64,000 nt of DNA, from assembly GCA_028871815.1 (NCBI GenBank), contig JAGWMJ010000010.1:1-64000 (forward strand). The letters are read 5' to 3'. A program made the translations under genes and the position numbers. The notes beneath the pieces are model-generated. The model was given only the letters and a program-made list of their open reading frames with translations, was not told the origin of the DNA and made no database searches. This document shows, one piece after another, positions 201-4,298 of this stretch (its first letter is position 1; every line of letters starts with the position of its first letter). The stretch comes from Armatimonadota bacterium (lineage in GTDB: Bacteria > Armatimonadota > Chthonomonadetes > Chthonomonadales > Chthonomonadaceae).

Positions 201-2294
201 TCAGGCTCGTGCCAACTGCTTGCCCTGTGCCCGAGCGAGAAGCTCTTCAGCTACGTTCCGTGGAACCTCGTCATAGTGGGAAGGCTCCATGCTGAACGAG
301 GCACGGCCCTGTGTGGCGCCGCGAATATCGGTTGCATATCCAAACATCTCGGCCAACGGCACCAGGGCACGTATCGTCTGGATGGCGCCTGGGCCGGGTT
401 CCATTCCTTCAACCCGGCCGCGGCGACGGTTCAGGTCTCCGATCACATCGCCCATAAAGCTCTCGGGTGTTACGATCTCCAGAGACATTATCGGCTCCTT
501 AAGGTAAGAGCGTCCCTTGCGAAGCGCCTCCCGCATTGTTTGAGACGCAGCTACCTTGAAGGCTATCTCCGACGAGTCGACATCGTGGTACGAGCCATCG
601 ACCACGGCAACCTGGAGATCTACCACGGGATAGCCGGCAATAACGCCACTTTCGAGCGCCTCGCGAACGCCCTTTTCAATCGCCGGGATAAACTCCTTCG
701 GGATGCTGCCACCGATGACCTTGTTCACGAATACGAAGCCCTGACCACTCTCCAGCGGCGACACTTCCAGCTCGCAATCACCGTATTGGCCGGAACCGCC
801 GGTTTGTCGCTTGAACGGCACACGCGCCAGCGCCTTGGAGTGGATGCTTTCGCGGTATGCCACCTGAGGCGCACCGTAGTTGGCCTCCACGCCATATTCG
901 CGCTTCAGGATGTCGATTTTGATATCCAGCTGCAGCTCGCCCATTCCGCTCAAGATCGTCTGCCCGGTTTCATAGTCGGTATTTACGCGGAAGGTTGGGT
1001 CCTCATTGGCAAGCTTCTGCAGCGCGATGGCAAGCTTATCCTGATCCACCTTCGTCTTCGGCTCGATCGCGATGGATATGACGGGGTCGGGAAATGTGAT
1101 GCTTTCCAGCAGCACAGGGTGCTTCTCGGCACACAGCGTGTCGCCGGTTTGCGAATACTTGAGACCGACGATTGCGGCGATATCTCCGGCGAATACCTCC
1201 TCAACATCCTCCCGGCTGTTGGCATGCATCCGAACGATTCGACCAACGCGCTCCTTGCGCGCCTTCGAGGCGTTCAATACCGTGTTGCCACAGGCCAGCG
1301 TTCCGGAATAGACGCGAAAAAACGTGAGCAGACCGTATTTATCGGTCGCCAGTTTAAATGCAAGCGCGCTGAACGGCTCCTCATCCGATGGCAGTCGTGT
1401 GATCACTTCGCCGTTGTTCGGGTTGGTGCCGGGTATGCCTTCCACATCATTCGGGGCGGGCAGGTAAGCCACGACGGCATCGAGCAGCAGCTGTACGCCC
1501 TTGTTTTTGTAGGCAGAGCCGCACAGAACGGGAACGATTGCGCCAGCCACGGTGCCTTTGCGCAGCGAGTGGCGGATTTCGTCGGCAGAGATCGGCTGAC
1601 CGTCGAGGTACTTCTCGATCAATCCCTCGTCTACATCAGCCACGGCTTCAACCAGGCGCGTGTGGTGCTCGTTTGCCAGTTCCTGCAATTCCGCCGGTAT
1701 TGGGCCGGTCTCCACATTCAGGCCAAGGTCGTCCAGATAGATGTGGGATTCCATGGCGATCAGGTCGATCACACCGGTAAATCCACTTTCCGCGCCAATG
1801 GGCAGCTGGATTGGGATTGCGTTGGCGCCCAGGCGATCGCGCATCTTTTCCACCACGCTGTAGAAGTTAGCGCCCATACGGTCCATCTTGTTGATGAACG
1901 CAATCCGCGGCACCTTGTAGCGGTTTGCCTGCCGCCATACCGTTTCGCTCTGCGGCTGCACGCCACCGACTGCGCAGAATATAGCAACCACGCCATCGAG
2001 AACGCGCAGCGATCGCTCCACTTCCACCGTAAAGTCGACATGACCCGGCGTGTCGATAATGTTGATCCGGTGTTCATCCCAGAAGCAGGTGGTAGCGGCC
2101 GAGGTAATCGTGATACCCCGCTCCTGTTCTTGGACCATCCAGTCCATGGTCGCCGCGCCTTCGTGCACCTCACCGATCTTGTGCGTGCGGCCCGTGTAGA
2201 ACAGAATCCGCTCCGTGCAGGTGGTTTTGCCCGCGTCGATATGAGCGGCGATGCCGATATTCCGTGTTTTTTCCAGCGAATACTGTCGTGCCAT
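201..2294 (-). CDS. fusA: Elongation factor G
   Basis: This 697-residue protein is the translocation GTPase EF-G, which moves tRNA and mRNA through the ribosome after peptide transfer. The G1 loop AHIDAGKTT is at residues 17-25, DTPGHVDF starts at 81 and NKMD is at 135-138. Length is normal for bacterial EF-G and the reading frame is intact. It lies 17 bases after the rpsG stop and upstream of tuf, so it is the third gene of the str operon. A long open frame on the opposite strand is a composition shadow. Confidence 0.98.
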
Positions 2295-2311: not shown

Positions 2312-2782
2312 CTACCATCTGTAGTGTGCAAAGGCCTTGTTGGACTCGGCCATGCGATGAACATCCTCTTTCCGTTTAACCGACGTTCCCGTGTTGTTTG
2401 TTGCGTCCGTAAGCTCCCCAGCGAGCTTGTCGATCATCGTCCGCCCACCGCGGCGCCTTGAATTGTTAACCAGCCACCGGATCGCCAGTGCGATTCGCCG
2501 CTCCTGCCGCACCTCAATGGGCACCTGATAACTCTGTCCGCCAACGCGGCGCGCACGCACTTCCACTGCCGGCATCACGTTACGCACCGCCTGCTCGAAG
2601 GCTTCCAGCGCCGGCTTGCCGGAGCGCTCTTCCAGAATCGTCATCGCGCCGTAGAAGATGTGCTCCGAGATGCTCTTTTTTCCATCGACCATCAGCCGGT
2701 TTATGAACCGCTGCGCGAGCACGCTGTTATAGACCGGGTCCGGTATGATCGTCCGTGGCCGGACGGCGCCTTTTCTTGGCAT
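2312..2782 (-). CDS. rpsG: 30S ribosomal protein S7
   Basis: The 156-residue product begins [18 protein letters not shown] and has the S7 signatures around [16 protein letters not shown] and [12 protein letters not shown]7 is the primary binder of the 3' domain of 16S rRNA and contacts the E-site tRNA. The length equals that of most bacterial S7 proteins. It is the second gene of the str operon, 56 bases downstream of rpsL, and in many bacteria S7 is the autoregulator of this operon. Confidence 0.98.
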
Positions 2783-2838
2783 CGGGTTGCTGTTTCCTCT
2801 GGTCTGCTAGCTGTCCGGGCTCAGTGCCCTGAACGGGA

Positions 2839-3210
2839 TTACTTTGCCTTCTTGGTGCCGTACTTGGACCGGCTGGACATCCGTTCCCGCGTTCCGGAGG
2901 CATCCAGCGTGCCGCGGATCACGTGGTATCGCACGCCGGGTAGATCCTTGACGCGGCCGCCGCGGATCATCACCACGCTGTGCTCCTGCAGGTTGTGGCC
3001 GATGCCAGGAATGTACGCGGTCACTTCCGTTTTGTTGGTAAGCCTCACCCGGGCGATTTTCCGCAGTGCGGAGTTTGGCTTTTTCGGTGGCACCGTACGG
3101 ACGATAAGACACACGCCGCGCAGCTGCGGGTTGCCGCGAAGCGCCGGCGCCTTGGTCTTTTTATTGATCCGTTTGCGTCCATTGCGGACAAGTTGATTAA
3201 TGGTTGGCAT
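2839..3210 (-). CDS. rpsL: 30S ribosomal protein S12
   Basis: The start chosen gives [14 protein letters not shown], 123 residues, the usual S12 length; an upstream in-frame ATG would add 46 unrelated residues. A GAGGAG ribosome-binding site lies 12 bases before the ATG. The decoding-centre segment [11 protein letters not shown] and the loop [13 protein letters not shown] are intact, so the usual streptomycin-contact lysines are present. The segment normally read as [11 protein letters not shown] is [11 protein letters not shown] here. This is the first gene of the operon and is preceded by a leader of about 270 bases that contains an intrinsic terminator. Confidence 0.98.
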
Positions 3211-3332
3211 GTTGCAGCCGTTCTCCTCGCCACGATGCACCGCGGGCGAACACGGGGATCCGTTCCGATTGATTGTCGCCGGCGCGGAACCGCCGGACAT
3301 CACGGCAAGGCCGGAATACCGGCGCTGCCGAC

Positions 3333-3360
3333 AAAAAACCCCTGTCACGTTCGGCAGGGG
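3333..3360 (-). terminator. Intrinsic terminator inside the rpsL leader (candidate attenuator)
   Basis: Read on the minus strand, CCCCTGCC pairs with GACAGGGG across a 6-base loop and is followed by TTTTTT. No minus-strand gene lies upstream that it could terminate, and a strong minus-strand promoter sits about 130 bases upstream. It therefore probably attenuates the str operon. Two further short hairpins lie nearby: ACTAAG/CTTAGT at 3373-3389 on the promoter side and GCCGG/CCGGC at 3310-3323 on the gene side. Confidence 0.7.
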
Positions 3361-3488
3361 CAGAAGGCACGTACTAAGCGGAACTTAGTGCCCGTTTGTC
3401 ACGAGCGAAAGGTGAAACGCCTTTCCCGTAGCCTCCTTTACCGCAACCGAATTGTCTCTGCCCGGATCAGCTCCGTGCAAACCGGGGT

Positions 3489-3518
3489 ATTGTACACCAA
3501 CGGTAAAGTTGTTGTCAA
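3489..3518 (-). promoter_or_regulatory. Promoter of the str operon
   Basis: On the minus strand TTGACA (3518-3513) and TACAAT (3494-3489) are separated by 18 bases, with a TG just before the -10 box. This is a near-consensus housekeeping promoter. Transcription would start near 3482, giving a leader of about 270 bases before rpsL. Confidence 0.8.
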
Positions 3519-3643: not shown

Positions 3644-4000
3644 ATGCCGGACGGCCCGTCGAATGAGCATACCCTATTGAAGCGCTTCCGGGCTACGGTT
3701 CGCCGCGAGTTCGGCGCGAATCTGGAAAAGGCCACGCCTGCCAATGTCCGGGAATTCCTGGATCGGCATGAGGAAGAGATGCTCCACGGACGGCCAAAGG
3801 CGCCGATTGAGCTTCGCGAGAGCAAAACCACGTACGAAGAGATTCTGAAGGATTTCTTCTCCGATGTCCTCGACCGGCCAACCGATGAGGCCATCATCGC
3901 GCTCTGGACGCTGGCGCTCGAGATGTCGTTCTTCTCGATTGAGCAGCAGGCCGCCGATCGCTTTCGACCGCTCTTCGGCGATCGCGACACGCCACCGTAG
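3644..4000 (+). CDS. Hypothetical protein, 118 aa
   Basis: A GAGGAG site lies 9 bases before the ATG. The product is a soluble, charged, predominantly helical protein (MPDGPSNEHTLLKRFRATVR...) without signal peptide, membrane segment or motif that I recognise. It is transcribed divergently from the str operon and is followed about 50 bases later by a possible promoter for the next mini-gene. Codon use resembles its neighbours and the ribosome-binding site is convincing, so it is probably a real gene of unknown function. Confidence 0.7.
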   Translation: MPDGPSNEHTLLKRFRATVRREFGANLEKATPANVREFLDRHEEEMLHGRPKAPIELRESKTTYEEILKDFFSDVLDRPTDEAIIALWTLALEMSFFSIEQQAADRFRPLFGDRDTPP

Positions 4001-4094: not shown

Positions 4095-4226
4095 ATGAAA
4101 CAGCTGAGATACCAAACCCAGGTGCCCGTCTTTTCCTCGACTGACGGCCGGATTCTGCCTGGCAGATTCGGCGGTCGGTACGGCAAGCGGTACGGTCGTG
4201 TGGTTGGAGGGAATACTTCGAGTTAG
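4095..4226 (+). CDS. Small basic Arg/Gly-rich protein, 43 aa
   Basis: The open frame starts MKQLRYQTQVPVFSS and ends in a run of Arg, Gly and Tyr (GRFGGRYGKRYGRVVGG). An AGGAG site lies 11 bases before the ATG and a 14-bp intrinsic terminator starts 26 bases after the stop, so it is framed like a real, independently terminated transcription unit. No signal peptide or membrane segment is visible. The positive charge suggests nucleic-acid or membrane binding, but that is inference. A non-coding small RNA ending at the same terminator is the alternative. Confidence 0.55.
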   Translation: MKQLRYQTQVPVFSSTDGRILPGRFGGRYGKRYGRVVGGNTSS

Positions 4227-4251: not shown

Positions 4252-4298
4252 ACGCCACGGCCCCGCCGCACACCGCGACGGGGCCGTGGCGTTTTTTT
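4252..4298 (+). terminator. Very strong intrinsic terminator
   Basis: ACGCCACGGCCCCG (4252-4265) pairs perfectly over 14 bp with CGGGGCCGTGGCGT (4279-4292), with a 13-base loop, and is followed by seven T residues. It ends the unit containing the mini-gene and isolates the ABC exporter gene downstream. Confidence 0.9.

Follow-up and report, generated by a model that had tools for sequence, protein, structure and literature searches.

The leader of the rpsL-rpsG-fusA operon in the analysed DNA of an Armatimonadota bacterium, which groups with the Chthonomonadaceae, is probably a transcription attenuator, as judged by comparing it with related leaders. A predicted antiterminator and an intrinsic terminator share one RNA strand between the promoter and rpsL, and this putative switch in the S12 leader probably matches protein supply to ribosome assembly. 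The window, i.e., the whole stretch of 64,000 nt under analysis, carries the operon on the minus strand. Transcriptional attenuation of this str operon had been proposed in a sequence-only reading and is well supported by the comparison, since the layout recurs in a large part of the phylum and is absent at two control genes.

The rpsL leader in the window

The features of the locus are collected in Table 1. The promoter expected ahead of rpsL is present with the sequence and spacing first proposed. The terminator hairpin starts about 123 nt past the expected RNA start, and 122 nt lie between the last T and the ATG of rpsL (3210), both in agreement with the anticipated spacings of about 120 bases. 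Of the clean terminator with an 8-bp stem and six T, the hairpin and the six T were confirmed; the stem is shorter, with six Watson-Crick pairs, and a seventh pair (G-U) is possible. This hairpin was not listed by the 8-kb scan because the loop limit of the scan was 8 nt. Three promoter-like sites were found in 8 kb, with 2.4 expected from shuffling; by itself the window promoter thus does not exceed chance, and the argument depends on comparison with relatives.

Table 1. Features of the rpsL leader and the operon behind it
Feature	Position	Strand	Remark
Sigma-70-type promoter, TTGACA-18-TACAAT	3489..3518	-	11/12 consensus matches
Expected RNA 5' end, CGGTTTGC	3473..3484	-	start inferred from the -10 element
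5' hairpin (P0)	3457..3482	-	predicted fold
Antiterminator 5' strand, UUCGGUUGCGGUAAAGGAGGCUACG	3427..3451	-	predicted fold of RNA cut before the terminator 3' arm; duplex with bulged A
SD-like motif AAAGGAGGC	3431..3439	-	conserved, without a start codon behind it
Three small hairpins between the antiterminator strands	3425-3407, 3406-3390, 3389-3373	-	predicted fold
Antiterminator 3' strand CGUGCCUUCUGCCCCUGCCGAA	3350..3371	-	predicted fold; overlaps terminator 5' arm and loop
Intrinsic terminator hairpin CCCCUG-N10-CAGGGG	3339..3360	-	about -9.7 kcal/mol
Terminator T tract TTTTTT	3333..3338	-	six T
rpsL, ribosomal protein S12	2842..3210	-	Pfam PF00164, E 4.6e-37
rpsL-rpsG gap	2783-2841		59 nt
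rpsG, ribosomal protein S7	2312..2782	-	Pfam PF00177, E 6.3e-60
fusA, EF-G	201..2294	-	Pfam EF-G domains

The promoter is located within a minus-strand ORF of 229 aa that ends at 3385. No Pfam match was found for the last 71 codons of this ORF, and it was rejected as the owner of the terminator on that ground, which agrees with the claim that no other minus-strand gene could own it. At the gathering score, no Rfam family matched anywhere in the window; four sub-threshold matches were obtained around the leader, the best with an E value of 0.044. The three small hairpins enclosed by the antiterminator strands (3373..3425) are a candidate ligand-binding domain in the modelled fold.

On the plus strand, an ORF of 118 aa (3644-4000) without Pfam match diverges from the rpsL promoter. 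A basic, Gly/Arg-rich ORF of 43 aa (4095-4226) is followed by a terminator-like hairpin at about 4273-4289 and then by an ABC-transporter-like ORF; among 41 genomes searched, the 43-aa ORF is present in the window's genome only.

Conservation of the layout across Armatimonadota

An rpsL match was found in 259 of 291 genomes of the phylum, and 117 sequences 5' of rpsL were collected. The set was hand-chosen among the rpsL matches listed, with families of uneven size, so that the counts are not phylogenetically independent; they overstate independence because the leader sequences are related to each other. In all, 113 terminators were assigned, and 12 hairpins were set by hand. Terminators and promoters were counted in 110 leaders; six with a stored end other than the start codon, and a further one 234 nt long, were left out. 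Of the 102 leaders with a promoter, 88 were used for pairing and motif counts, after removal of ten near-duplicates and of the doubtful assignments L018, L117, L163, and L165. Families are designated by f numbers, the window's own being f1.

A strict terminator, searched for 17-300 nt before the gene, was found in 82 of the 110 leaders, against 9.9 expected from dinucleotide shuffles, and a promoter with at least 10 of 12 consensus matches in 101 of 110, against 2.6 in shuffles. Relatives lacking the terminator had been named in advance as the finding that would speak against attenuation. None was seen in the window's own family, where the strict terminator is present in 15/15 leaders; it is missing in some distant families (0/3 in f16, and 0/1 each in f23, f11, and f22). 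The strict counts in f3 (5/11) and f6 (4/9) are low, since poor T tracts follow several hairpins of these two families.

Within the window's class, the order promoter-terminator-gene was found at 20 of 26 rpsL loci and at none of the 27 loci each of rpsB and rplM. These control loci represent 27 of 30 for S2 and 27 of 29 for L13, the rest being partial matches or having too little upstream DNA, and the L13 regions end at the Pfam match rather than at the start codon. For comparison outside the class, 79 of 80 loci were used, mostly of other phyla but including a few from Armatimonadota; the ordered layout was present at seven, one of them from Chthonomonadaceae. A strict terminator was found at 12 of the 79 loci, and two of these 12 also had AGGRGG at the right distance.

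A covariance model of 121 positions, built from 26 leaders of the class, detected a single copy in each of 29 genomes among the 61 relatives: 28 of the 31 that belong to the family and order of the window, and one genome of f19. Of the 28 copies in the family and order, 27 adjoin rpsL. The remaining copy, in a genome outside the model (G013), is at the end of contig C143, and rpsL begins contig C476, as expected if a contig break separates the two.

Shared motifs and predicted antiterminator pairing

Many leaders of the phylum share motifs at fairly constant positions. GGTT occurs within the first 3 nt of 47/88 leaders (1.9 expected), AGGRGG in 62/88 (9.1 expected), and its form AGGAGG in 44/88 (4.1 expected). 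The motif is followed by the terminator hairpin at a median distance of 75 nt (10-90% range 64-85), and the hairpin's end is reached at a median of 102 nt (88-115). Counted from 12 nt ahead of the motif through the T tract, the length is 114-128 nt in 27/27 leaders of f1-f3.

An alternative pairing of the CCCCTG arm had been suggested in the sequence-only reading, and it is supported over the relatives only. In the window, the strand GUU-CGGU-AGG(A)GGC is able to pair with GCCCCUGCCGAAC, which comprises the terminator 5' arm and part of the loop. When the RNA is cut before the terminator 3' arm, the best predicted fold is an antiterminator enclosing the three small hairpins, and the antiterminator fold is within 0.4 kcal/mol of the fold of leader plus terminator (-56.0 vs. 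-55.6 kcal/mol). In the window alone, the alternative pairing is no better than in shuffled leaders (z +0.58), and the arm pairs upstream with a probability of 0.71 vs. 0.64 in shuffles. Such predicted folds are weak evidence singly, because GC-rich leaders pair easily by chance. Over the 88 leaders, the terminator 5' arm is paired upstream with a mean probability of 0.75 vs. 0.48 in shuffles, and the value is higher than in shuffles in 77 of them. Swapping terminators within families weakened the pairing, as none of 5000 permutations was as good (75 leaders, families of two or more). A swap test restricted to f6, with nine near-identical leaders, opposed the pairing (4723 of 5000 swaps as good).

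Covariation, for which an alignment of the rpsL leaders of relatives had been proposed as a check, was found in f19/f36/f37 and not in the window's own family. For the 12 leaders from f19/f36/f37, 92.0% pairing was obtained in the helix; a shift of 1-3 columns lowers this to 30-53%, and compensatory changes on both sides were present at 5 of 17 pairs; shuffles reached the four relevant measures in 0, 11, 2, and 1 of 500 cases. In f1 the helix is conserved (94.4% paired) with no both-sided change, and shuffles do equally well. An antiterminator in a fixed register over f1-f3 was tried and rejected, with 62.4% of cells paired vs. 63.4% in column shuffles; in this register, eight pairs had a both-sided change, the shuffled mean being 5.8 and 18 of 500 shuffles being as high, and this was the one measure that leaned towards it. 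The single register fails because the strands pair in registers that differ between species. Consensus folding of whole MAFFT alignments of the f1 and f3 leaders gave nothing useful. Cut before the terminator 3' arm, the f1 leaders gave one short helix and those of f19/f36/f37 a long one. Sequence comparison thus supports the antiterminator at the level of the group, with the firmest case in f19/f36/f37, and it is carried over to the window because of the common layout.

Regulation, alternatives, and related leaders

The antiterminator 3' strand is transcribed ahead of the terminator 3' arm, so the antiterminator would form first and RNA polymerase would read through, which makes read-through the likely default. 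A ligand in excess would bind an alternative fold and open the antiterminator helix, the terminator would then form, and transcription would stop near 3333. We infer this direction, with the ligand causing termination, from the order of the strands. The regulation is probably product feedback, by analogy with the str operon of E. coli. On the same analogy, the ligand is assigned with moderate confidence to an operon product, S7 or S12, and binding of a ribosomal protein to the leader is plausible. The Bacillus L20 leader is a ribosomal-protein leader acting by attenuation, and it likewise involves a choice between terminator and antiterminator, set there by a ribosomal protein; it belongs to a different operon, and no rRNA mimic was recognised in the Armatimonadota leader. 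By exact k-mers (k of 7, 8, and 9), totals of matches between the leaders and the genome's own 16S were as in shuffles, e.g., 82 vs. 78.8 for 9-mers. The top 16S-matching 7- and 8-mers are the AGGGGGC motif itself. Another match, AGUCGGAAU, which we take to be placed in the S7 region of 16S, recurs in three leaders, and 20 shuffles also reached three.

An unlikely reading is that the leader senses free 30S subunits, the AGGAGG core pairing with the anti-SD of 16S. Binding of the anti-SD would take AGGAGG from the antiterminator, the terminator would form, and surplus 30S subunits would shut off synthesis of S12, S7, and EF-G. The excess of AGGAGG without a start codon points this way, and the fourth base of the core is A or G in 59/66, as A-U or G-U pairing with the anti-SD needs; in drawings of the antiterminator, however, this base is often bulged out. 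The extended match to the anti-SD wants U after the core, whereas C is found there in 48/66; A precedes the core in only 27/66, and the motif is paired in the predicted fold. Feedback by free ribosomes is an old idea, and it would become directly testable if the core docks 30S. The rest of the probability falls to ligands other than S7, S12, or 30S.

A constitutive partial terminator would lower read-through by a fixed fraction and set operon dosage with no ligand sensed. In its favour, conservation is highest in the terminator and the promoter, and the two folds of the window are nearly equal in computed energy; it is improbable, because it needs neither the long leader with conserved AGGRGGC, nor the fairly constant spacing to the hairpin's end, nor the co-varying antiterminator strands. 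In attenuation by a leader peptide, ribosomes would bind at AGGAGG to translate a short ORF, and this translation would decide on termination. The motif fits the 3' end (GGATCACCTCCTTTCT) of the 16S gene in the same genome, and most ribosome-binding sites of rpsL are weaker, only 1/88 containing AGGAGG. A start codon (ATG, GTG, or TTG) lies 4-11 nt behind AGGRGG in 11 of 62 leaders, fewer than the 16.5 expected, and none lies behind the motif of the window; because of this, AGGRGG is not generally the ribosome-binding site of a leader peptide, and we consider the explanation very improbable.

Also very improbable is a terminator that belongs to an upstream minus-strand gene or to a free small RNA and is unrelated to rpsL control. 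A promoter and a terminator about 150 nt apart could yield a small RNA, and the 229-aa ORF ends within the leader, at 3385. The element, however, is found directly 5' of rpsL over many families, once per genome, and the promoter separates the terminator from any upstream gene; the lack of a Pfam match in the 3' part of the ORF and of any matching Rfam family also argues against this origin. That a hairpin and a T run met by chance in a GC-rich intergenic stretch would fit the number of promoter-like sites in the 8-kb scan, which is not above shuffles, but is refuted by the comparison, both by the excess of strict terminators over shuffles (82/110 vs. 9.9) and by the contrast with the control genes (20/26 vs. 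0/27 and 0/27), and it retains a negligible probability.

Little is known of how bacteria other than a few model groups adjust str-operon output to the assembly of ribosomes. A leader whose layout can be recognised in a large part of the phylum offers a defined target, with a promoter, two competing helices, a motif, and a predicted 3' end, and its parts can be tested in vitro with purified S7, S12, or 30S.

Attenuators ahead of rpsL were predicted earlier in other bacteria (PMC2965389). According to the accessible text of that source, and compared by description rather than by structure, they resemble the present leader in having a terminator 5' of rpsL and a proposed alternative antiterminator, and in being purely predicted; no globally conserved feature is given there for the leaders, whereas here one AGGRGGC layout is found across many families. 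Of the features by which such attenuators are recognised there, the intrinsic terminator between promoter and rpsL is present here, and an antiterminator overlapping the terminator is seen over relatives, the window alone being no better than shuffles. Thus, rpsL attenuators are already known as a prediction, and the phylum-wide AGGRGGC variant was not found described; a literature search, which lay outside most subscription papers, returned no description of an Armatimonadota rpsL leader. A term search of the accessible text of PMC7247131, which deals with 20 leaders, found Armatimonadetes not named and rpsL once, in the table row of the L13 gene, which was taken for a misread rpsI.

In E. 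coli, repression by S7 is exerted at the rpsL-rpsG junction of the str mRNA and affects translation (PMC10931766, as far as accessible). The operon is the same and S7 is a candidate regulator in both, whereas the Armatimonadota element is 5' of rpsL and would act on transcription. Premature 3' ends in rpsL, by termination or processing, are described for stationary E. coli in the available part of PMC10687069. The rpsL motif of Candidatus Pelagibacter ubique, as presented in the accessible text of PMC2704228, consists of a bulged stem attached to a three-stem junction and is described only from that organism and marine metagenomes. It is likewise a structured RNA ahead of rpsL, different as a motif, and according to PMC2965389 it does not show the terminator features used there.

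Several rpsL leaders depart from the common layout. L116, L117, L119, and L120 (f15) and L114, L122, and L160 (part of f19) are divergent and lack AGGRGGC, still with hairpins; the rpsL leader is multiform even within Armatimonadota. Nine f6 leaders (L030, L126, L129, L133-L135, L142, L143, and L146) have very stable hairpins ahead of rpsL (about -19 to -25 kcal/mol), and their T tract is interrupted, as in UGUGUUUCG. The f29 leaders L178-L180 carry GGAGGTTCAT...ATGAACC-like inverted stretches near the 5' end, unlike the common layout. The rpsL leaders L097 and L103, from uncultured Clostridia and Firmicutes, have terminators that are nearly identical and lie 46 and 50 nt from the gene, with a GGRGGC located after the promoter and ahead of the terminator, possibly a similar leader outside the phylum.
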